From positions 29,952,682 to 30,016,681 of the forward strand of contig NC_080171.1 of assembly GCF_950295315.1 (NCBI RefSeq): a stretch of 64,000 nt of DNA, read 5' to 3'. Shown here in pieces: positions 1 through 59,340 of this stretch. How positions within the stretch are numbered: the stretch's first letter is position 1; every line of letters starts with the position of its first letter. Below the pieces are notes generated by a model, which was given only the letters and a program-made list of their open reading frames with translations, was not told where the DNA came from and searched no databases. Both the position numbers and the translations under genes were made by a program. Source of the stretch: Erinaceus europaeus (Eukaryota > Chordata > Mammalia > Eulipotyphla > Erinaceidae).

Positions 1-1196
1 GACTGACTGAAATAGATCACGATGAATGAAAAGCAATTGTTACAGTTGATTATGGGGTAAGAAAAAAAGAGACTGAGAAGAAGGGAGAGAAAACAGTGAA
101 TAACTAAGATGGGAAGATGTGAAAAGGGGTAAATGTAGTAGAGCTGAGTGATAGTATTAGTTGAATAGTCAGGGTGCCTACTAGAATCCTTCAATTTCTG
201 GTGGCTCTTGGCTTAATCACTTGTAAGTGTCTGAGTGTTTCAGTGAAAGTCAAATCTGAACGTTTCCTTCCCACGTCCTTTGGTCTGGATACAATCTCAA
301 ATTCTGTATTTTCCTTAAGACTCTTCCCATCAGGGCCTCCTAGTTGTCTTCATGGCTTCTATCTGCAGGTGTTTCTTCTTCAAGGTGCTAACAACCTTAT
401 TCTTGTCCAACTGGGCATGGAGGGGGCACTTTGTAGGCTTGCTAGCCGAGGGCTTCCTCCTCCCCCTTTGCTGCTTTTACTTTTAGTCTCTCCTTGGGAA
501 GGCGTTTGGGAGAGACCTTAACTACTCAAACTGGCATACACTCCCATGATCTTTGAGCTCTGTGGATCACCTCTGTGGGAGGAGAGAATACACATTATAT
601 AGAATCCTGCCTCTGAACAAGCTCAGGTTGTGTTGAGTGCTAGGGGCCTTTGACTCAGTTTCTGCCCTCGGCTTGGCCACTGGTCAATCACTGGACATGT
701 GGGGAAGGTTATCCTACATCAATGGGCCCTTGATCAACTTACCAGGTGACTTCAGATACATGAGAGTGTCCAACCAAGATGGACAGGTGCTGACCCAGAT
801 TCACAGACCAACAGGTCACTTTTACAGGCACAAGTAACTGTTGCTTTAAATCTCTTAAGTTGTTGGGCTTTGTTACATTGCCCTTGGTAGGTTTAGAGGA
901 AGATGTTTGATGATCCAACGTCTGGAAGATTTGGGGAACCTCTTCCACTTTGCCATCCAGAGGTGGGAGGAATGGCAGTGTGCATGTCTGTACTGAAATA
1001 GTCATATATCCGAAGTACCAAGGTATTTGACCTCCAAACACTGCTATGGGACTGTGTCTAAGCTGTGGATTCAGCTGTGAAGTGAAAGTGACCAGCAGTG
1101 GCCTTTTGGGTGCACTGCTTCACTCTTAGATCTAACAGAAATGCAGAGGGCAACCTTGAGGAGAATTGGCCCCTTGATAATGCAGATAGGAGTTTT
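1..1196. other. Unique sequence, no gene recognised
   Basis: I see no repeat family, splice-flanked exon series or protein motif here. The longest open frame (174-521, 115 codons) is low-complexity and resembles nothing I know. Confidence 0.5.
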
Positions 1197-1495
1197 AAAA
1201 AATAATTATGATTATTACTACTATTATTATTTGTTTTTATTGCTGCCAGGGTTATTTCTGGGGCTCAGTGCCTGCACAATGAATTCACCTCTCCTGATGG
1301 TTACTTACTATTATTATTATTATTATTTTATTATTATTTGATAGGACACAGTGAATTTGAGAGGGGAGGGGAGGTAGAGATAAAAAGAGAGAGGCACCTA
1401 TATCATTGCTTCAGTGCTTGTGAAACTTCCCCTCTGCAGGTGGGGAGCAGAGGCTTGAGGATGGGTTCTTGTGCGTGGCAACATGTGTACTCAGG
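1197..1495 (-). mobile_element. Type B SINE, old copy with TTA-rich tail
   Basis: On the minus strand this reads tRNA-like head, 'cacctgcagagggg'-like core, CT-rich middle, then the terminal module ending in 'aataaccctggcagcaata'. On the plus strand the module 'gccagggttatttctggggctcagtgcctgcacaatgaa' shows it at about 1246-1284. ATT/TTA microsatellite lies both beyond the 3' end (1202-1230) and at the internal A-rich linker (1307-1339). It is diverged and not transcribable by appearance. Confidence 0.75.
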
Positions 1496-2140
1496 CAGCT
1501 CCTAGATATGAGGTTTTACCTAGCTGAGGACAGGGGAGTTATCTGCATTCCAAAACATTACATATGCAAATCCATTTATGTGGCTATAATAATCAGGCTG
1601 CTGGTCTTGGCAGTCTTTGATCTGTGTGCACTCTACCCATGCATGCTGATGACACTCCAAATTCTGCACAGACCCAGGTCACAAATGGAAGGATGTCATT
1701 GTTCTTTTGTGTGAGAGAGCCAATGGAAAGGATGCGCAAGATGATGTGAGCCCAGCAGTTGGTGATAATGGACGGTGAAGCCAGAGGAAAGATATGGAAT
1801 AAGGAGCCTTTGAGCAATATTTACTGAACTCAATTCAGAGCCCAGTTCCCATGCCTCGCCACATGCAGCCCTATCTAGCAGATCTCAGTTCTGCTTACAA
1901 CCTGTGGCAGGAATTTCAGGGCTTTGTTCTGCAGCAGAACTTTTCATGAATAAATGCTGGAATTAGGACTTGAATTTTCTTTCAAGATAAAGGCTCAAGA
2001 CTAATAGTGGTCTTATTCTCCTCGTATGAAGTAGTTTTCTGATACAATTCTAAGGAAACTCTGTCTCTGCCCAGAGATTGGTAATTTTAGGAAGTGGATG
2101 TATCAGTGTGCCCAAGAATATAGTAACTACAGGGGCTGGC
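1496..2140. other. Unique sequence
   Basis: No repeat or gene recognised between the SINE and the Vingi-derived element. Confidence 0.45.
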
Positions 2141-2235
2141 TTCTTCTTCTTCTAGCGCTTGCCCTTCTTCCGTAGCCAGTCAACAGCGTCAGGTTGAAAG
2201 CTGTCAGGAGCTGCTTGTTGCTGGCTGGCTGATAA
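2141..2235 (-). mobile_element. Mini-Vingi: about 95-bp internally deleted Vingi derivative
   Basis: Read on the minus strand, about 35-40 bp of the Vingi 5' region (the segment coding the start of the endonuclease ORF, matching 58,293-58,332) is joined directly to the last 50 bp of Vingi (matching 20,917-20,966), including the ORF stop codon and a GAA-repeat tail. The join falls on a shared 4-bp TCAA. Nearly all of the endonuclease and RT is missing, so mobility would have needed proteins from a full Vingi. Several nonautonomous families made by internal deletion of Vingi-1_EE are published; whether this is one of them or a private event cannot be told from one copy. I could not define a TSD. 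Confidence 0.82.
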
Positions 2236-2239
2236 CTGG

Positions 2240-3431
2240 GAAATACAAAAAGAGGACCCCAGATTTCAGAAGATGGCTGTGGCCTCGGTGGGTCCATCTA
2301 ATGAAGGTTGTTTACAACCCTGTGGTTTGGTATTTGGTCTTAATGCAGAAGGCTCAGTGGGTATTGCTTGGAGCACTTTGCTGTGTGTAGTTAAAGCATT
2401 CTTAATTGACTTGACAGAGAGGATGGTGGCCAATCTCAGCTGCTCCCATTGCTTCTCTCCATCTCACTCTGGGAGCTTTGGTTCTATCTCATTTCCTCTG
2501 TGGTTTGAGTTTCAGACAAATGTTTTGGAGCTGTCATGAGATGAAGCACGGTTTCTAATATTTACAATTTAGATGGTGGTTTCTTTTAAAATATGAACTT
2601 TCTCAGTTAGGCTAAGTCATTGTATGTTTGCCTCTCTCTGTTTGCTTTGGTGTTTGGTTAGACATTTCAGAGCCAGTTTAATAGGGTTTTCTTTTTCTCT
2701 CCAGATATCAAGGGAGCAAAGGAAAATTAATGTAGCAGGCATAACCTTCCCAGGTCCTGGGACAAATGACTTTACTGCAATGTGAGATCTGAACACCCAT
2801 ATCTATCTAGAAGGCAGTTCAGAAACACTGGGTCTTCCAGGCTCCTGCTGCTTTCTTGTTTGCTCTGGGTCTATGAGCTTTTGGAGGAGAGAAGCATGTC
2901 ATTTCTTCATCCTTTATTGTCACCTTCAATGTAGGATGGAGGCTGCTCAGATGAAAGAAGCCTCAGCCAGCCATTCCTCAAGGACAAAATCCTTCACATC
3001 CCAGATGGCCTACATGCTCAGGAGATCTCACTGTCTTTGTCACCAGTCCTTATAGCCCATCTTTCCTCTCTCCAGATATTTTCTGTGGACATATTCCTGG
3101 CTGAATTTCTGTACTTTTTGACTCAAAGATCTTACAAATAGTGACAACTCCTTCTTGCTTCTGGGGAGCTATGCAGGCCAGGGCCTCCTATGAGCTTAAG
3201 AGTCTGGAAGGATCATGAGTATTTGAGGAATACCTCATATGAGATCTATTCCTTAGAGGTTAACCAGAAGCTTCTCAAGACATAATGGAAATGAATTCCT
3301 TCTAGGAAGATACTAGGTTCTTCAGGTGGGGGTAACTGCACATTTCTTGCATATATCCTGGCCTAGTCATCCTCTGTTTCAATTCTTATATCTAAATACT
3401 TTCCAATGTGTAAGTGGGTATGAAAAATACT
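2240..3431. other. Unique sequence
   Basis: No repeat, motif or exon recognised. Short open frames (2273-2539, 2873-3055) have no family resemblance. Confidence 0.45.
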
Positions 3432-8657: not shown

Positions 8658-8663
8658 CTGAGT

Positions 8664-8963
8664 CTTCTTCTAGCATTTGCCCTTCTTCCATAGCCAGTCA
8701 ACAGCGTCAGGTTGAGCCTGATGTAAAGTTTCGAGACGTCCTTTGAATCTGGAGAGGTGGCAGTCGTTGACTATGTGGGTCATAGTCTGTCTGTATCTGT
8801 AGCCGCAGGGGCAGTTCGGTCGTCTCTGGCTCCCCAGTGATGGAACATAGCGGAGCACCGGCCATGTCCTGTTCGATAGCGATTGAGGAGGGCCCAATCA
8901 TAACGTGCTAGGTCAAAGCCGGGTTGACGCTTGCAGGGGTCTGTGATGAGGTGTTTGTTCTTT
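8664..8963 (-). pseudogene. Vingi ORF, C-terminal fragment with CCHC finger
   Basis: Reverse-strand remnant of the Vingi polyprotein end. The zinc-finger region shows as CPCG, then QTMTHIVNDC, with a 4-base insertion between ('tgtatctgtagccg' region, 8793-8806) that shifts the frame relative to the 18.75 kb copy. The intact family spacing is C-x-C-x7-H-x4-C. The fragment ends at the TAG stop next to the GAA tail. Confidence 0.8.
8948..8963 (+). repeat. TSD, left copy, of the L1 in Vingi
   Basis: The 16 bases gaggtgtttgttcttt recur exactly at 11,031-11,046 on the other side of the L1. Confidence 0.95.
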
Positions 8964-9682
8964 TTTTTTTTTTTTTAATTTTTTATTTAAGAAAGGATTA
9001 GTGAACAAAAGCATAAGGTAGGAGGGGTACAATTCCACACAATTCCCAACACCCAATCCCCATAACCCACCCCCTCCCCTGATAGCTTTCCCATTCTCTA
9101 TCCCTCTGGGAGCATGGACCCAGGGTCGTTGAGGGATGCAGAAGGTAGAAGGTCTGGCTTCTGTAATTGCTTCCCCGCTGAACATGGGCGTTGACTGGTC
9201 GGTCCATACCCCCAGTCTGCCTCTCTCTTTCCCTAGTAGGGTGTGACTCTGGGGAAGCTGAGCTCCAGGACACATTGGTGGGGTCTTCAATCCAGGGAAG
9301 CCTAGCCAGCATCCTGGTGGCATCTGGAACCTGGTGATTGAAAACAGAGTTAACATATGAAGCCAAACAATTTGTTGAGCAATCATGGATCCCAAGCTTG
9401 GAATAGTGGAGAGGAAGTGTTAGGGAGGTACTCACTGCAAACTCTAGTGTAGTCCTGCTTTAAGGTATATATTTTGCAGTAGTTTATGGATACGTGTGCA
9501 CATAAGCTCTCTCTCACAGAAACTGGTGTATATCTAGGTTATGGGACTTTGTTAGAAAGTGAACTACCTGAGATGAAATTAGAGTGTACTATTAAAGGAA
9601 AGGTCTCACCCGAGTAATGAAGCTGAAGGGTTGTCATTCCACACGTGAAGTCTCTGGATACATTCTGAGGTGAAGCATGTTG

Positions 9683-10324
9683 AAAAAAGCAAATGACCCC
9701 ATCCAAAAATGGGCAGAGGAAATGAACAAAACATTCACCACAGAGGAGATCCAAAAGGCTAACAAACATATGAAAAACTGCTCTAGGTCACTGATTATCA
9801 GAGAAATGCAAATCAAGACAACACTAAGATACCACCTCACTCCTGTAAGAATGGCATACATCAAAAAGGACAGCAGCAACAAATGCTGGAGAGGATGTGG
9901 GGACAGAGGAACCCTTTTACATTGCTGGTGGGAATGTAAATTGGTACAGCCTCTGTGGAGAGCAGTCTGGAAAACTCTCAGAAGGCTAGACATGGACCTT
10001 CCATATGACCCAATAATTCCTCTCCTGGGGTTATACCCCAAGGACTCCATAACACCCAACCAAAAAGAGGTGTGTACTCCTATGTTCATAGCAGCACAAT
10101 TCATAATAGCTAAAACCTGGAAGCAACCCAGGTGCCCAACAACAGATGAGTGGCTGAGAAAGCTGTGGTATATATACACAATGGAATACTATGCAGCTAT
10201 CAAGAACAATGAACCCACCTTCTCTGACCCATCTTGGACAGAGCTAGAAGGAATTATGTTAAGTGAACTAAGTCAGAAAGATAAAGATGAGTATGGGATG
10301 ATCCCACTCATCAACAGAAGCTGA
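9683..10324 (+). pseudogene. L1 ORF2 C-terminal fragment (intact frame)
   Basis: About 213 codons open to a TGA stop, on the inverted part of the L1. It covers the end of ORF2 after the RT domain. A cysteine motif C-x3-C-x7-H-x4-C (CWRGC...LLHCWWEC) is complete, followed by the well-conserved IPLLG.YPKD and [11 protein letters not shown] blocks seen at the C-terminus of mammalian L1 ORF2. ORF2p is the endonuclease-reverse transcriptase of L1, and this region is thought to aid RNA binding. The endonuclease and RT are missing, so it is a fragment; its start codon is a junction artefact. Confidence 0.93.
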
Positions 10325-11030
10325 CTAAGAAGATCTGAAAGGGAAACTAAAAGCAGGACCTGATCAAATTGTAAGTAGGGCACCAAAGTAAAAACCCAGT
10401 GGTGAGGGGTAGGCATGTAGCTTCCTGGGCCAGTGGGGGGTGGGAGTGGGTGGGAGGGATGGGTCACAGTCCTTTGGTGGTGGGAATGGTGTTTATGTAC
10501 ACTCCTAGCAAAATGTAGACATAAAAATCAGTAGCTAATTAATATGAGAGGGGGAAATCAATTGTATGTCTCAAAGTTTCTCAAAAGACAAACTGAATCT
10601 TTTTAATATATAGGCTATGTATTTGATATGCGGACTCTCTCAAAAGCCTCGACCAAGTAGATTAGAAGCTTCCAATAGCACAGCTATATACAAGATACTG
10701 GGTACTGTCCAGCAAACCATAACAAAGGGACTTTTCAAAGTTAACCCAATTAACAAATAATGTGATGATAATATTAACTATTGATTGTCTTTTTGAACCC
10801 TAAGACAGCAGGAACCTCACATCTTCACTATAGAGCCCCTACTTCCCCCAGTCCTGGAACCCTTGGATAGGGCCCACTTTCCCGTATGCATCTCCCAATC
10901 CAAACCAAATAACATTGCATCTGCCGATCACAACCTAACCAAAGCAACGATTGCTACCTCAACATGCTTCACCTCAGACTGTGTCCAGAGACTTCACGTG
11001 TGGAATGACAACCCTTCAGCTTCATTACTC
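10325..11030 (+). mobile_element. L1 proximal 3' UTR
   Basis: Part of the inverted L1 segment. It includes a G-rich block at 10,430-10,462 (runs of GGGGGG and GTGGG), a typical L1 3' UTR polypurine feature, and a 'ctgtcttagggttcaag'-like stretch shared in reverse with 33,830 and 60,640. Confidence 0.88.
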
Positions 11031-11046
11031 GAGGTGTTTGTTCTTT
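11031..11046 (+). repeat. TSD, right copy, of the L1 in Vingi
   Basis: Exact match of 8948-8963. Confidence 0.95.
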
Positions 11047-11708
11047 ACCTCAGCTGACTGCCAACTCTGTTTCCAAGAGACTGCAACAGAGAAGTTCAGT
11101 GTAGGCGTAGGGGACCAGACTGGATGATGAGACGTCAAGCGTTGGACAGGGTGGGTGAAGATATCCGCGTATATTGGCAAGTCCGGTCGAGCGTAGACGT
11201 GGGAAATGAACTTAGATGATGCCGCATCCCGACGAATATCTGGTGGGGCGATGTTGCTAAGAACTGGCAGCCATGGAACCGGGGTGGAACGGATGGTTCC
11301 AGAAATTATCCTCATGGAGGAATATAATTTGGAATCGACCAAGTGGACATGGGGGCTACGGAACCATACTGGGGCACAGTATTCTGCAGTGGAATAGCAT
11401 AATGCCATAGATGATGATCGCAGTGTGGAAGCACTCGCGCCCCATGAGGAGCTGGCCAGTCTTGCAATGATGTTATTGTTGCAGTTTTTATGAGATGTTC
11501 GTGAAATGACAGAGTGCGATCGAGAGTAACGCCAAGATAGACTGGGTGGGCTTCATGCCGGATTCTCGTATCGCCAAGCTGCACATTAAGCTCACGCGAG
11601 GCCGAGGCATGGTGTAGATGGAAAACAGATGATACCGTTTTTGCAGTGCTAGGGATTAGTTGCCATTTTTTACAGTAATCAGATATCAGATATCAGAGAC
11701 ATGTCTTT
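11031..11708 (-). pseudogene. Vingi RT C-terminal half, fragment
   Basis: Reverse-strand coding remnant matching residues about 203-440 of the 18.75 kb Vingi frame, from the helix after the catalytic box to before the CCHC finger. Recognisable blocks include YLGVTLDRTLSFHEHL, ALCYSTAEYCAPVWF and NIAPPDIRRDAAS. It is broken by indels, for instance near 11,490, where bases between the HEHLIKTA and ASSSWGAS regions are lost. Confidence 0.88.
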
Positions 11709-11714
11709 CTGAGT

Positions 11715-18319: not shown

Positions 18320-18742
18320 AATTATACAGATTGAAGAAGTAAATGCTATGGAAAAATACAAAGAAAATCAGGATGGAGGGGTTGCGACTGTATAGGGGGA
18401 ACTGGGCTGCAGTTTTGAGTAAAGGGCTCAGGGTCAGCCGCAAGTGAGAGTGAGCTCTGAGCAAATATTTAAGAGATGAGAAAGTTGGATATGGGTCTGG
18501 AATGTTCTGATATCAGGAACAGTACATTTGATTGTTAGCTTGTAAGTCAGTGTATGTGGAAGTGAGAGAAAGTTAGATAATAAAGACCCAGGTTACATGG
18601 AGTTTTCTGTTGTCAGACTTTGGCTTTTACTCTGAAAGGAATGCAGAGTCAGTGTAGCTTTTGAGGGGTGAGGTGTGATATGACTTTGTTTTCAAGGAGT
18701 TTGTCTAACTGCCATGTTTATTTATTTATTTGTTTAATTATT
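18320..18742. other. Unique sequence
   Basis: Nothing recognised. Confidence 0.4.
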
Positions 18743-18752
18743 ATTATTTTAA
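18743..18752 (+). repeat. Vingi TSD, left copy
   Basis: attattttaa recurs at 20,967-20,976 just after the GAA tail. The left copy lies in an ATT-rich stretch, so its exact edge is uncertain. Confidence 0.72.
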
Positions 18753-18759
18753 TAATAAT

Positions 18760-19150
18760 CAGTGATCTTACCAACAAATCTATTCCTGCAATTCCAATTA
18801 ACTCTATACCCTCTGAAGATTCCTACAGGTGCTTCCGCCAAACCATCTTCAAAGCAGCTTCCCAAGCCATTCCTTGTGGGAGACGTGCTAACTATACGCC
18901 TTGTCTTGATGCTGAATGCGAGCAACTACTAAAGCAGTATGATGAGTCGGGCGACCCAGATGTGGCTGACCATCTCATTGCCTCCCTGGATGCAGCACGC
19001 CAAGCCCGCTGGCAACAACTCACGGAAATTTTGAACTTCACCCATTCAGTAGGAAGGCCTGGAAGCTTCTTCACAGACTGGGTGCCGGTAGCCAACCCCC
19101 TCCCGTCTCCCATCCTCCCGTATCTCCAAACTCAGTGGCCAGTCACCTAA
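18760..19150 (+). pseudogene. Vingi endonuclease-RT linker region, broken
   Basis: Open in the same frame as the RT ORF. It codes the segment containing FRQTIFKAASQAIPCGRR and DVADHLIASLDAARQARW, also present, inverted, at 57,300-57,560. It ends at a TAA stop (19,148-19,150). Between 19,151 and about 19,300 at least one indel separates it from the RT frame, with an in-frame TGA just before the AGYDNINPEL block. Confidence 0.82.
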
Positions 19151-19303
19151 CTCAAGTTGGACGTGCTAAGATCGACCCAGTCTGGAAAAGAGAAATTTCC
19201 CATGAGTGGTCATCCCACTTCTGTTTATCTTGTCCATCTCCAAAACTCTCTCCCTTTACACTGTCTGAACTGGAAGACGCTTTGAACAACTGCTGGCTAT
19301 GAT

Positions 19304-20959
19304 AACATCAACCCAGAACTCATTCTTAACCTGGGTCCCGCGGCAAATAAGTGGCTCGCTTCATTCCTGTCCCACATCTTGGAATCTAGGTCTATGCCCA
19401 AAGTTTGGCGTCGTGCGAAGATTATAGCGGTTTTGAAACCAAAGAAAGACCCAACACTGGCCGCCAGCTATAGACCGATTTCTCTCCTCTCCGTGTGTTA
19501 CAAACTCCTCGAGAGGCTGCTTCTGTCACGTATTTCTCCTCTTACAGAGAAATTCCTATCACCCGCCCAAGCTGGTTTCCACCCAGGAAGATCTACCTGT
19601 GAACAAGCCCTGGCCCTCTCAACTTACACTGAAAATGGATTCCAGAAGAATTTAAAGACGGGTGCTGTCTTTGTTGATCTCACAGCAGCCTATGACACCG
19701 TCTGGCACCGTGGTCTCCTAGTTAAGATCTCAAGATGCCTGCCTCCATGGGTGGCCAACACTATAACGTTTCTTCTCCAAAACAGAAGATTCCGGGTGCA
19801 TCTGGGTGACAAGTCTAGCAGATGGAGACTTGTCTCAAATGGCCTCCCCCAGGGCTCTGTTCTGGCTCCTACGCTATTTAATATTTACATCAATGACCTC
19901 CCAGAAACTTCTTCAAGGAAGTTCATCTACGCCAATGACATATGCTGTGCAACTCAGGCATCCAAGTTCGACATCCTCGAGGAAACACTCATGAAAGACA
20001 TGTCTCTGATATCTGATTACTGTAAAAAATGGCGACTAATCCCTAGCACTGCAAAAACGGTATCATCTGTTTTCCATCTACACCATGCCTCGGCCTCGCG
20101 TGAGCTAAATGTGCAGCTTGGCGATACGAGAATCCGGCATGAAGCCCAGCCAGTCTATCTTGGCATTACTCTCAATCGCACCCTGTCATTTCACGAACAT
20201 CTCATAAAAACTGCAGCAAAGGTGGGCGCGAGGAATAACATCATTGCAAGACTGGCCAGCTCCTCATGGGGTGCGAGTGCTTCCACACTACGATCATCAT
20301 CTCTGGCATTATGTTATTCCACTGCAGAATACTGTGCCCCAGTATGGTTCCGTAGCCCCCATGTCCACTTGGTCGATTCCAAATTATATTCCTCCATGAG
20401 GATAATTTCTGGAACCATCCGTTCTGGAACCACCCCAGTTCCATGGCTGCCAGTTCTTAGCAACATCGCCCCACCAGATATTCGTCGGGATGCGGCATCA
20501 TCTAAGTTCATTTCCCACGTCTACGCTCGACCGGACCTGCCAATATACGCAGATATCTTCGCCCACCCTGTCCAACGCTTGACGTCTCGTCACCCAATCT
20601 GGTCCCCTACACCTACACTGAACTTCTCTGTTCCAGACTCTTGGAAACAGAGTTGGCAGTCAGCTGAGGTAAAGAACAAACACCTCATCACAGATCCCTG
20701 CAAGCGTCAACCCGGCTTTGACCTAGCACGTTATGATTGGGCCCTCCTCAAACACTATCGAACAGGCCATGGCTGGTGCGCCGCTATGTTCCATCGCTGG
20801 GGAGCCAGAGACGACCCGAACTGCCCCTGCGGCTACAGACAGACTATGACCCACATAGTCAACGACTGCCACCTCTCCAGATTCAAAGGAGGTCTTGAAA
20901 CTTTACATCAGGCTCAACCTGACGCTGTTGACTGGCTACGGAAGAAGGGCAAACGCTAG
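19304..20959 (+). pseudogene. Vingi reverse transcriptase ORF, catalytic box mutated
   Basis: Target-primed RT of a Vingi element. A 526-codon frame is open from 19,379 to the TAG at 20,957, and open codons extend upstream to about 19,304 (AGYDNINPEL). With residue 1 at 19,379: RT motifs YRPISLL at 31, motif A FVDLTAAYDTV with catalytic Asp100, motif B GLPQGS at 155-160, motif C at 184-187. Motif C reads YAND where the family has YADD, a G-to-A type change (19,934) that removes a metal-binding Asp. The C-terminus has a CCHC finger (C482, C484, H492, C497). No RNase H domain follows, as expected for Vingi. A 9-bp in-frame duplication near 20,424 (SGTT) is absent from the other two copies. It is likely a dead copy, though the long frame implies recent decay. 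Confidence 0.92.
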
Positions 20960-20966
20960 AAGAAGA

Positions 20967-20976
20967 ATTATTTTAA
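20967..20976 (+). repeat. Vingi TSD, right copy
   Basis: attattttaa, matching 18,743-18,752. Confidence 0.72.
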
Positions 20977-21088
20977 CCGGAGCACTGCTCAGCTCTGGCT
21001 GATGGTAGTGCAGGGGATTGAACCTGGGACTTTAGAGCCTCAGACATGAGAGTCTCTTTGCAGAACCATTATGCTATCTACCCTCCTA
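20977..21088 (-). mobile_element. Type C SINE
   Basis: Reverse strand: 'agcactgctcagctctggctgatgg', 'gggattgaacctgggactttagagcctcagacatgagagtctctttgc', 'accattatgctatctaccc'. The Vingi inserted into or beside its 3' end. Confidence 0.88.
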
Positions 21089-21366
21089 TCTGCCATATTT
21101 AGTCTTACGAGTCAGGGCAAGGAAGGGCACAATAAATACAATGAAAACCATGTAGGAACCTGTCATAAGAGTCTGTTTGGATGAGTTCTGGCCAGAAAAA
21201 AACTATGGCAGTAATGAGAATAATTACTTGAGCCTCTGTTAAAGAAACAGGAAAAGCAGGGTGGGGGAGGCAAACAGTAGCACCCCAATCTGAGTTTTTG
21301 ACCCACATTTATTTAAATCAGAATCTTAGTATCAATATGTCTTACAAGTTCTTACTATGCTATCTC
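21089..21366. other. Unique sequence
   Basis: Nothing recognised. Confidence 0.4.
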
Positions 21367-26766: not shown

Positions 26767-27312
26767 TCTCTCTCCCCTCCCTTCCTCTCCTGTCTCCTCT
26801 CCTCTCCTCTCCTCTCCTCTCCTCTCTCCTCTCCTCTCCTCTCCTCTCCTTTTTGTCTCCTCTCCTCTCCTGACTCCTCTCCTGTCTCCTCTCCTGTCTC
26901 CTCCCCTCCCTCTCCTTTCTTCTCCCCTCCCCTTTCCTCTCCCCTCCTCCTCCCCATTCCCCTCCTCTCCTTTCCTCTCTTCTCCTCTCCTCTCCTTTCC
27001 TCTCCCCTCCTCTCCTCTCCCCTCCTCTCCTCTCCTCTCCTCTCCTCTCCTCTCCTCTCCTCTCATCTCCCCTCCCCTCCCTTTCCCTCCCCTCCTCTCC
27101 TCTCCCTTCCTCCTCCCCTTTCCTCTCCTCCCCATTCCCCTCCTCTCCCCTCCCCTCCTCTCCTTTCCTCTCTTCTCCTCTCCTCTCATCTCCTCTCCTC
27201 TCATCTCCTCTCCCGACTCCTCTCCTCTCCTCTCCTCTCCTCTCCTCTCCTCTCCTCTCCTGACTCCTCTCCTCTCCTCTCCACTCTTTTCTCCATCTCC
27301 CCTTTCTCTTCC
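26767..27312. repeat. CCTCT polypyrimidine array, about 545 bp
   Basis: Imperfect tandem CTCCT/CCTCT pentamers, interrupted by 'gactcctctcc', 'ttttgtctcc' and 'cattcccc' variants that recur as blocks. One strand is almost purely pyrimidine. Long open frames on both strands are artefacts of the period-5 repeat. Confidence 0.97.
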
Positions 27313-52394: not shown

Positions 52395-52531
52395 AATGTT
52401 TCTCCTTTTTGCCAGCAAAGTTATTGCTGTGGTTTGGTGTCTACAAGACCATTTCCCCATTCCTGGTGGCCATTTCTTTCTTCCTTTCTTTTTAATTTCC
52501 TTCCCTCTCCCTTCCTTCTTTCTTCTTCTTT

Positions 52532-52595
<64 letters not shown>

Positions 52596-52915
52596 TCCTT
52601 CTTCTTCTTCTTCTTCTTCTTCTTCTTCTTCTTCTTCTTCTTCTTCTTCTTCTTCTTCTTCTCCTCCTCCTCCTCCTCCTCCTCCTCCTCTTCCTCCTCC
52701 TCCTCCTCCTCCTCCTCCTTCTTCTCCTTCTCCTTCTCCTTCTCCTTCTCCTCCTTCTCCTTCTCCTTCTCCTTCTCCTTCTCCTTCTCCTTCTCCTTCT
52801 CCTTCTTCTTCTTCTTCTTCTTGCCTCCAGTCACTGGGGCTCAATGCCAGCCCTATGAAACTACTTTGTGTACCCTTAACTGGGTGCACCACTGCCCACT
52901 CTCCAGTTTTTTTTT
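52395..52915 (-). mobile_element. Type B SINE split by a grown microsatellite
   Basis: Terminal module at 52,405-52,475 ('gccagcaaagttattgctgtggtttggtgtctacaagaccatt') and a further SINE piece at 52,823-52,915 ('cagtcactggggctcaatgccagcc', 'ccttaactgggtgcaccactgcccact'). The usual GA-rich core is replaced by the repeat array. Confidence 0.72.
52476..52822. repeat. Layered polypyrimidine microsatellite, about 345 bp
   Basis: Ordered blocks: (TTTC)n about 52,530-52,595; (TTC)n about 52,597-52,660; (TCC)n about 52,661-52,720; (TTCTCC)n about 52,720-52,804; (TTC)n to 52,822. All on one strand pyrimidine. Long frames here are artefacts. Confidence 0.97.
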
Positions 52916-57269: not shown

Positions 57270-57279
57270 AGGACTCCCC
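57270..57279 (+). repeat. Vingi TSD, left copy (aggactcccc)
   Basis: Exact repeat of 59,331-59,340. Confidence 0.93.
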
Positions 57280-57575
57280 AGGCCTTCCTACTTGAGTGGG
57301 TGAAGTTCAGACTTTCTGTGAGTTGTTGCCAGCAGGCTTGGCATGCTGCATCCAGGGAGGCAATGAGATGGTCGGCCACATCTGGGTCGCCAGACTCATC
57401 ATACTGCTTTAGTAGTTGCTCGCATTCAGCATCAAGACAAGGCGTATAGTTAGCACGTCTCCCACAAGGAATAGCTTGGGAAGCTGCTTTGAAGATGGCT
57501 TGGCGGAAGCGCCTGTAGGAATCTTCAGAGGGGATAGAGTTAATTGGAATTGCAGGAATAGATTTGTTGGTAAGA
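57280..57575 (-). pseudogene. Vingi linker region after endonuclease (inverted part)
   Basis: Minus strand reads QFQLTLSPLKIP and, in another frame, MADHLIASLDAACQACW and LNFTHS, matching 18,790-19,050. The inverted segment ends here at 57,280. Confidence 0.82.
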
Positions 57576-58352
57576 TCACTGAACAGACGCCAGTTTGCTT
57601 TTCCGAAAGTTCCATCTTAGTTTCTCCGAGCACAGAATCAGTGGGAGCTGGAGACCAATGTGGATGATAGCTGGGCGGTGATGACTGTGCGGGAAGATCT
57701 TGAGAACTTGTCTCGTAGTGGGAAAAGCTTGGCTGTTGACTGTGCTAATCCAGCACAGGTCGGATGACGAGTCTTTATTCCATCTAGCACTGTGAAAAGA
57801 GCCTGGCTGTTTGGGATCGTATAATAGGGAGAGGTCATTTGCTGAAGCCCAGTCGGCTAAGATAGAGCCGTCAGCATGAGTGGAGGAATATTCCCAGTCT
57901 TGGTGATGACTCTTAAAGTCTCCAACGTAAATGGCTGGGTGATTCGGGCTAGGCAGGACCTCATTATCCCATGAGGCACCGGGAGGCTTATATATGTTGA
58001 CGAGCTGAATAGTTCCAATAGTAATGGAGTCGTAGAAGGTCAAAGAGGCCGTATGGTAAACGTCCGCAAGATACGGTTTAGTGTAGATGGCTTGGCCGTG
58101 TTTAGGATGGAGATTATAGCATATTAAATCTAATCCACTGATGGTGAATTGAGCAGCTTCATTGACTGCTATATGTGTTTCTTGTAGGCAAATAACATCT
58201 GCCTGATGCTGTATCGCCAATTGACCAATAAGAATGTGTTTGGCAAAGGACAGCCCCTCAACATTAAGTTGGAGGACTCGAAGAGCAGGACCAACAGCTT
58301 GAAAGCTGTCAGGAGCTACTTGTTGCTGGCTTTGAAAGTGACTGGGATCCAT
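57576..58352 (-). pseudogene. Vingi APE-type endonuclease, catalytic motifs changed
   Basis: A 258-codon frame from ATG at 58,352, close to the RNA 5' end. Apurinic-endonuclease-like domain that would nick target DNA for priming. Motifs: LRVLQLN (Asn30), CLQETH (Glu58), VNIYKPP (Tyr121), GDFK at 144-147 where the family has GDFN, SSDLCW at 196-201, and SHHRPA at 223-228 where SDHxP is usual. Two conserved residues are therefore changed, so activity is unlikely. A frameshift near 57,576 cuts it from the following linker. Confidence 0.9.
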
Positions 58353-58436
58353 GTGGATTCAGTCGGCTAGGAAGGATCGTCAGTTTCCCCAGTGATTGGG
58401 TACTCATGGGATGCACCACGGGAAGGTCGATCCAAT

Positions 58437-59325
58437 GGTATCATCTGTTTTCCATCTACACCATGCCTTGGCCTCGCGTGAGCTTAATGTGCAGCTTGAC
58501 GATACGAGAATCCGGCATGAAGCCCAGCCAGTCTATCTTGGCGTTACTCTCGATCGCACTCTGTCATTTCACGAACATCTCATAAAAAGTGCAGCAAAGG
58601 TGGGCGCGAGGAATAACATAATTGCAAGACTGGCCAGCTCCTCATGGGGCGCGAGCGCTTCCACACTACGATCATCATCTCTGGCATTATGCTATTCCAC
58701 TGCAGAATACTGTGCCCCAGTATGGTTCCGTAGCCCCCATGTCCACTTGGTCGATTCCAAATTATATTCCTCCATGAGGATAATTTCTGGAACCATCTGT
58801 TCCACCCCAGTTCCATGGCTGCCAGTTCTTAGCAACATCACCCCGCCAGATATTCGTCGGGATGCGGCATCATCTAAGTTAATTTCCCACGTCTACGCTC
58901 GACCGGACCTGCCAATATACGCAGATATCTTTGCCCACCCTGTCCAACGCTTGACGTCATCCAATCTGGTCTCCTGTGCCTACACTGAACTTCTCTGTTC
59001 CAGACTCTTGGAAACAGAGTTGGCAGTCAGCTGAGGTAAAGAACAAACACCTCATCACAGACCCCTGCAAGCGTCAACCCGGCTTTGACCTAGCGCATTA
59101 TGATTGGACCCTCCTCAATCGCTATCGAACAGGCCATGGCCGGTGCGCCACTATGTTCCATCGCTGGGGATCCAGAGATGACCCGAACTGCCCCTGCGGC
59201 TCCAGACAGACTATGACCCACATAGTCAACGACTGCCACCTCTCCAGATTCAAAGGAGGTCTCGAAACTTTACATTAGGCTCAACCTGATGCTGTTGACT
59301 GGCTACGGAAGAAGGGCAAACGCTA
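58437..59325 (+). pseudogene. Vingi RT C-terminal half with CCHC finger
   Basis: Direct part. Open from the junction through ELNVQLDDTRIRHEAQPVYLGVTLDR, ALCYSTAEYCAPVW and PPDIRRDAAS, then a frameshift near 58,960 and a second frame with VPDSWKQSWQS and the CCHC finger CPCGSRQTMTHIVNDC. A premature TAG at 59,276 precedes the family stop at 59,321. Catalytic box absent. Confidence 0.88.
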
Positions 59326-59330
59326 GAAGA

Positions 59331-59340
59331 AGGACTCCCC
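59331..59340 (+). repeat. Vingi TSD, right copy
   Basis: aggactcccc, followed by L1 3' UTR. Confidence 0.93.

Follow-up and report, generated by a model that had tools for sequence, protein, structure and literature searches.

A stretch of hedgehog DNA with the remains of a Vingi retrotransposon raises the question of what kind of element it is, and of how a family of this kind forms its RNA and multiplies in a mammalian genome. We analysed 64,000 nucleotides of Erinaceus europaeus contig NC_080171.1 (hereafter the window; positions are counted from its first base), together with other copies from the same genome and with homologous proteins.

Anatomy and insertion site of the window copy

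The window carries a 5'-truncated Vingi LINE copy on its plus strand (18760..20967), which corresponds to nucleotides (nt) ca. 870–3090 of the full-length element and ends in AGAAGAAGAA. In comparison with a full-length sister copy (L023), the homologous stretch spans ca. 2.2 kb (18759-20967) and shows 95.4% identity over 2227 columns. A preliminary description of this DNA had proposed the limits 18753..20966; the homology begins at 18759, and 18753 is the first base after a candidate 5' target-site duplication.

The copy contains an open frame of 526 aa (19379..20959, plus strand) with a reverse transcriptase (RT) domain, whose motif C is YAND, and a C-terminal CCHC finger (C-x-C-x7-H-x4-C). 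The motifs YRPISLL, DLTAAYDTV and GLPQGS, on which the preliminary description had relied together with the finger, are all present in this frame, where Pfam recognizes RVT_1 at 2.1e-31 and no other domain above the cut-off; motif C had not figured in that earlier list. Likewise, the claimed absence of RNase H holds in Pfam searches of the frame, and the 3' end, CTAGAAGAAGAA, is indeed a short GAA tail; the terminus reads CTAG followed by AAGAAGAA. Among solved structures, the RT of the 526-aa frame matches human LINE-1 ORF2p and R2 proteins (PDB 8uw3, 8sxt, 9nl3 and others; E 8.4e-9 to 8.3e-7). LINE-1, which has an ORF1 and a poly(A) tail, differs from Vingi and is of another clade.

Candidate target-site duplications of 10 bp, ATTATTTTAA, flank the copy at 18743..18752 and 20967..20976 (both on the plus strand). 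The 7 nt TAATAAT (18753-18759) separate the 5' duplicate from the start of the element, and the duplication could possibly be shorter, the site being AT-rich. The copy sits within the T-rich end of an antisense element, which we take to be a SINE, with its body at 20977..21089 (minus strand) and its own duplications to the left (CTGCCATGTTTA, 18709..18720, plus strand) and to the right (CTGCCATATTTA, 21090-21101). Because Vingi inserted in the T-rich end of a SINE that is flanked by its own duplications, the SINE is the older of the two.

The window holds other Vingi copies. The second (57278..59332, plus strand), whose flanks share GGACTCCCC, has a 5' inversion: 57278-58437 corresponds, on the minus strand, to nt 1174-7 of the element, and 58434-59332, on the plus strand, to nt 2185-3088. 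The third (8663..11709, minus strand) comprises nt 2122-3089 and is split by an insert of ca. 2.07 kb (8963-11030). This insert, probably a younger LINE insertion, has one end marked by a run of T, and the same 15 nt of the element (nt 2795-2809) stand on both its borders. The fourth (2144..2226, minus strand) is a short, internally deleted derivative, joining nt 113-149 to 3037-3090, with GCCAGC near both its ends. Apart from these copies, the window contains long pyrimidine-rich simple repeats, CTCTC-like and CTTCTT-like, at 26770-27286 and 52473-52822.

A known Vingi family with a recent expansion

Vingi is the sister clade of Ingi, which differs from it in having RNase H, and the published Vingi-1_EE family encodes an endonuclease and an RT without RNase H, like the hedgehog element analysed here. 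Kojima, Kapitonov and Jurka reportedly described Vingi in 2011 as related to Ingi, as the title of their work has it. From its host, its anatomy and the literature, we name the element Vingi-1 of hedgehogs, which was published in 2011 and is not new. The preliminary description had recognized a Vingi element in a mammal, already described from hedgehogs and proposed as a horizontal transfer; domain content, young expansion and literature agree with it, as Vingi-1N3_EE was described in Erinaceus europaeus, with 311 copies less than 1% divergent, in an article that cites Kojima et al. 2011 for the likely horizontal transfer of Vingi (PMC3183009). The Vingi-1_EE and Vingi-1N families, as cited in PMC3183009 and PMC5753468, share with the element the hedgehog host, a recent expansion and the existence of short derivatives.

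A search of the same 2.72-Gb genome with the 526-aa frame gave 69,369 first-look candidates, of which 82 were scored, all with 94–100% amino acid identity; the window itself accounts for the 100%, and sister copies show 94–96%. Twenty-four copies differed on average by 2.98% in pair comparisons (1.58% outside CpG columns), and their tree was star-like, with end branches of 0.009–0.021 and 0.018 for the window copy, figures that lean young because these copies were chosen as best matches. If mammalian DNA changes at 2–5 substitutions per billion sites and year, an age of roughly 4–9 million years would follow for the window copy.

Full-length copies measure ca. 3.07–3.08 kb. The natural ORF of L023, of 971 aa, contains an APE-type endonuclease (PF14529 Exo_endo_phos_2, 1e-10; PF03372 Exo_endo_phos, 7.4e-10) upstream of the RT (PF00078 RVT_1, 4e-29), and Pfam did not find RNase H in it either. 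Of 21 copies, all but L010 share a 3' end that runs on as AGAAG. A script run on 21 copies detected candidate target duplications of 7–13 bp at nine, candidates of only 6 bp, some plainly spurious, at five, and no duplication of at least 6 bp at seven. Inversions of the 5' part occur in L010, L016 and the window copy at 57278-59332. Together, the target duplications at scattered sites, the 5' truncations and inversions, and the 3' GAA tail point to insertion by target-primed reverse transcription.

Horizontal or vertical origin

The family could have entered the hedgehog lineage by horizontal transfer from an invertebrate or a reptile, as Kojima et al. 2011 proposed according to PMC3183009, and a young, star-like family with a mean pairwise difference of 2.98% is in keeping with this. 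In a protein search, the best 120 of 1922 matches included one of 96% identity (P0001), after which identity does not exceed 61% over the full query or 64% over part of it. The next full-query protein, at 61%, is an environmental one, and the named species among these 120 lie further away: pseudoscorpion, planthopper, moth and aphid at 45–47%, and a fish at 48% over 56% of the query. Another search, starting from P0002, added as named species only more pseudoscorpion and aphid among the matches listed. None of the 120 listed homologues (of 1922), and none of the 120 listed in the P0002 search, contained RNase H PF00075; P0147, from the latter, carries the RNase-H-like PF17917.

Two trees were built with rows picked from both protein listings, a quick one of 69 rows and a careful one of 37; the quick tree held, besides homologues of the hedgehog element, three unlabelled LINEs, and in the careful one the outgroup did not form a single clade. 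In both, the hedgehog element falls inside a fully supported clade of environmental proteins (38 rows in the quick and 19 in the careful tree, hedgehog rows included), its nearest group being P0002, P0003 and P0046 (support 80/93), and the named arthropods and fish fall outside this clade. However, the drop from 96 to 61% is also expected if vertebrate Vingi proteins are missing from the database, and for the same reason the trees neither name a donor nor exclude vertical descent. No donor appears among the homologues listed or in their trees, and old traces of Vingi exist in human, namely the Vingi repeat X12_LINE (PMC5753468, where Vingi is also reported in reptiles) and one pre-amniote Vingi protein fossil (PMC9004415). 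We thus cannot tell whether the transfer occurred; the chances appear evenly balanced, and a transfer would be compatible with the ribozyme described below.

Full-length copies begin with a predicted HDV-like ribozyme

Where the 5' end is complete, copies start with GGGATGCATTGG. The loci collected first contained 12 matches to the first 100 nt of the element, half of them (6/12) beginning at nt 1 and the rest between nt 4 and 57. In 30 loci fetched for their 5' end, which are top-scoring matches and so biased to complete ends (one of them, L059, is the place of L023 again), the element starts at nt 1 in 23, at nt 2 in four and at nt 3 in three; that is, all begin at nt 1 or within two bases of it, and their flanks are unlike.

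The first 75 nt of full-length copies fit the fold of a hepatitis delta virus (HDV)-like ribozyme, with helices P1, P2, P3 and P4, and CUGA in J4/2. The predicted P1 (GGGAUGC/GCAUCCC, nt 1-7/30-36) has 7 bp starting from nt 1 and encloses P3 (ACC/GGU, nt 17-19/27-29, with loop UUCCCGU); the predicted P2 (GGAUCG/CGAUCC, nt 11-16/65-70) forms a pseudoknot, and the predicted P4 is CCCA/UGGG (nt 44-47/53-56). The candidate catalytic C belongs to the CUGA directly before P2', and the J4/2 consensus of HDV-like ribozymes is CNRA; when the downstream part was shuffled 200,000 times, the combination of P2' plus CNRA arose by chance in 160 cases. Scored on the same six sequences from which the structure was derived, pairing in the helices held in 99.2% of 120 cells over six rows, and in 39–50% for slid versions.

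An independent check came from Rfam. When the 161-nt 5' region was compared with its 4227 families, HDV_ribozyme (RF00094) ranked first with 21.6 bits (E 0.23), aligned over the whole model (1-89) with P1 beginning at nt 1 of the element; L018, which is near-identical and not independent, gave 20.8 bits (E 0.33). Neither score reaches half the gathering score, which is 50, so we class the region only as HDV-like and not as a member of RF00094; in whole-locus scans of eight sources, Rfam gave no match at gathering threshold. The Rfam alignment also leaves P2 unpaired and places J4/2 upstream of CUGA. A generic descriptor (P1 of 7 bp, P2, P3, P4 and CNRA), composed after the fold had been fitted by hand, matches at nt 1 in L017, L018 (two copies) and L023, and misses L009, where J4/2 is mutated, and L026 and L028, in which the first P1 bases are absent or different. 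In shuffled window DNA it matched 388 times in 57.85 Mb of one strand, ca. one per 149 kb, and two stray matches in 21 pieces plus the window (L010:6440; window 5409, minus strand) were treated as background.

In the window, a covariance model (R1) found a single match, at 58369-58444 (79 bits, E 6.7e-17), within the inverted part of the second copy. There, 58369..58437 (minus strand) corresponds to nt 7-75 of the element, and the first six nt of P1 do not come from the element. In all, we predict that full-length Vingi copies carry an HDV-like self-cleaving ribozyme starting at nt 1.

Promoter or hairpin as an alternative to the ribozyme

A different reading takes the 5' sequence for an internal promoter or no more than a hairpin, with transcription starting at nt 1 and a coincidental likeness to the HDV fold. 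Several properties of the sequence suit it or count against the ribozyme. The strong P1 hairpin folds alone. A rival inner hairpin is preferred when the nested structure of minimum energy is computed (-28.4), compared with -19.4 for P1+P3+P4 and -7.5 for the P2 duplex, so that the ribozyme fold is at best level with the rival one. The pseudoknot P1.1 looks weak, with no more than a single Watson-Crick pair that could be placed there by eye, a feature that also differs between R2/HDV and trypanosomatid ribozymes (PMC4035085, section 9). Compensatory changes were absent, as none of 20 pairs had changed on both sides among six distinct rows; the family is too uniform for covariation to be visible, and the pairing is therefore not proved by evolution.

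Distant relatives that might have shown covariation amounted to one locus of 23% identity in viral contigs and 28 loci of 22–32% in genome contigs with bacterial or archaeal titles, and Rfam found no HDV match in L030-L032, the best three among the 28. These three are LINE-like RT frames of 913–1134 aa in contigs assigned to bacterial MAGs (Flavobacteriales, Aquifex and Janthinobacterium), probably through eukaryotic contamination.

On the other hand, P1, P2, P3, P4 and CNRA come jointly at nt 1, a coincidence of about one start per 149,000 in shuffled DNA; HDV_ribozyme comes first in the Rfam ranking, and Ingi-clade elements and R2 have a ribozyme at the same position. We regard the promoter or hairpin reading as unlikely. 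The trypanosome Pr77 is described both as a promoter (PMC4748587, PMC8190864) and as a ribozyme (PMC4035085), so the hedgehog sequence, too, might act as a promoter.

Abundance and short derivatives

An exact 26-nt ribozyme core (nt 10-35) occurs 1535 times genome-wide (746 + 789), an intact 70-mer of one common variant 334 times (158 + 176), and the 32-nt 3' end 17,705 times (8967 + 8738), whereas reversed-pattern controls for these exact counts gave zero. Using nt 1-100 as a query, 40 of 1032 candidates were scored, from which the above 30 loci were fetched. Two thirds of them (20/30) are internally deleted, with nine different junctions, and ten consist of a 157-bp form, at separate sites, that unites the ribozyme region with the last 40 nt of the element (nt 1-117 + 3051-3090; L060:1501-1657, L065, L066, L068, L071, L073, L074, L079, L082 and L083). 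The one in L060 is flanked by a duplication of 10–12 bp around AGTCACTCCTT. All 20 internally deleted copies keep the whole ribozyme region, a retention that is biased by the query itself (nt 1-100) and by the scoring of only 40 of 1032 candidates. A less biased inspection, by hand, of the first 11.16 Mb of C1 revealed 11 cores, five of which lay within 600 bp of an exact 3' end, defining elements of about 154, 192, 192, 192 and 563 bp.

Decay of the window copy

The window copy is dead, because it is 5'-truncated, its frame is broken upstream and its motif C is mutated. Since it begins at ca. nt 870 of the full-length element, the first ca. 870 nt are missing, and with them the endonuclease. 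In comparison with L023, it has deletions of 1 nt and 17 nt upstream of the open frame. Motif C reads YAND instead of YADD, and the altered residue, D186, is the first aspartate of YADD and is near-invariant in an alignment of the window copy with 16 homologues; the change lies at a CpG and is present in five of 24 genome copies, including the window copy. Although the 526-aa frame is long and open, it is extremely improbable that the host has preserved it as a gene derived from Vingi, and we rejected its domestication, because its end branch is ordinary (0.018, inside the 0.009–0.021 of its sisters), motif C was lost at a CpG as in other copies, the N-terminal part is absent, and similar frames are numerous in the same genome.

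Discussion

We consider it quite likely that the window holds a dead, 5'-truncated Vingi-1 copy in the tail of a SINE, and that its full-length sisters carry a predicted 5' HDV-like ribozyme that releases the element RNA. The longer family members (ca. 3.1 kb, with one ORF of ca. 970 aa for endonuclease, RT and CCHC finger) would copy themselves by target-primed reverse transcription. The element would be transcribed inside host transcripts, the ribozyme would cleave precisely in front of nt 1, and translation and retrotransposition of the freed RNA would follow; short derivatives keeping the ribozyme and the 3' end may be mobilised in trans. What the sequences show is the anatomy, the 5' ends at nt 1 or no more than two bases from it, the abundance and the match to the fold; self-cleavage, co-transcription and trans-mobilisation of hedgehog Vingi are our inferences.

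This model has close parallels. The L1Tc/ingi elements of trypanosomatids have an active 5' HDV-like ribozyme, Pr77, which like the predicted one lies at the 5' end and cleaves 5' of nt +1, and their short non-autonomous derivatives (SIDERs) keep it (PMC4035085). The trypanosomatid ribozyme is active, whereas that of the hedgehog is predicted from sequence. Similarly, R2 possesses an active 5' HDV-like ribozyme (PMC3774820), which its internally deleted partners, the R2 SIDEs, keep (PMC3414825; R2Dwi_SIDE in PMC4035085, section 9); R2, however, is site-specific in 28S genes, and the hedgehog Vingi copies are at scattered sites with differing flanks. Because Vingi was published as related to Ingi, shared inheritance of the ribozyme is the simplest account.

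We know of no 5' HDV-like ribozyme described before in a recently expanded mammalian LINE. A literature search, with most subscription journals outside its coverage, did not retrieve a paper linking Vingi and HDV-like ribozymes; the element is known, and the ribozyme is probably new.

A broader reading, to which we give about an even chance, is that young Vingi elements and their tiny derivatives, made up of the ribozyme plus the 3' end, have seeded a mammalian genome with more than 1,500 HDV-like self-cleaving ribozymes. The ribozyme would have been inherited from an Ingi/Vingi ancestor, would free the element from a host-matched promoter and, in sense intronic copies, could cut host pre-mRNAs. 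If this reading is true, independence from a host-matched promoter would favour jumps between distant species. A 5' HDV-like ribozyme in Vingi would itself extend a feature of Ingi-clade elements to this clade and explain how the 5' end of Vingi RNA is formed, with a bearing on its crossing between hosts, and in hedgehogs nature would offer a setting in which to see how numerous self-cleaving ribozymes affect a single mammalian genome.
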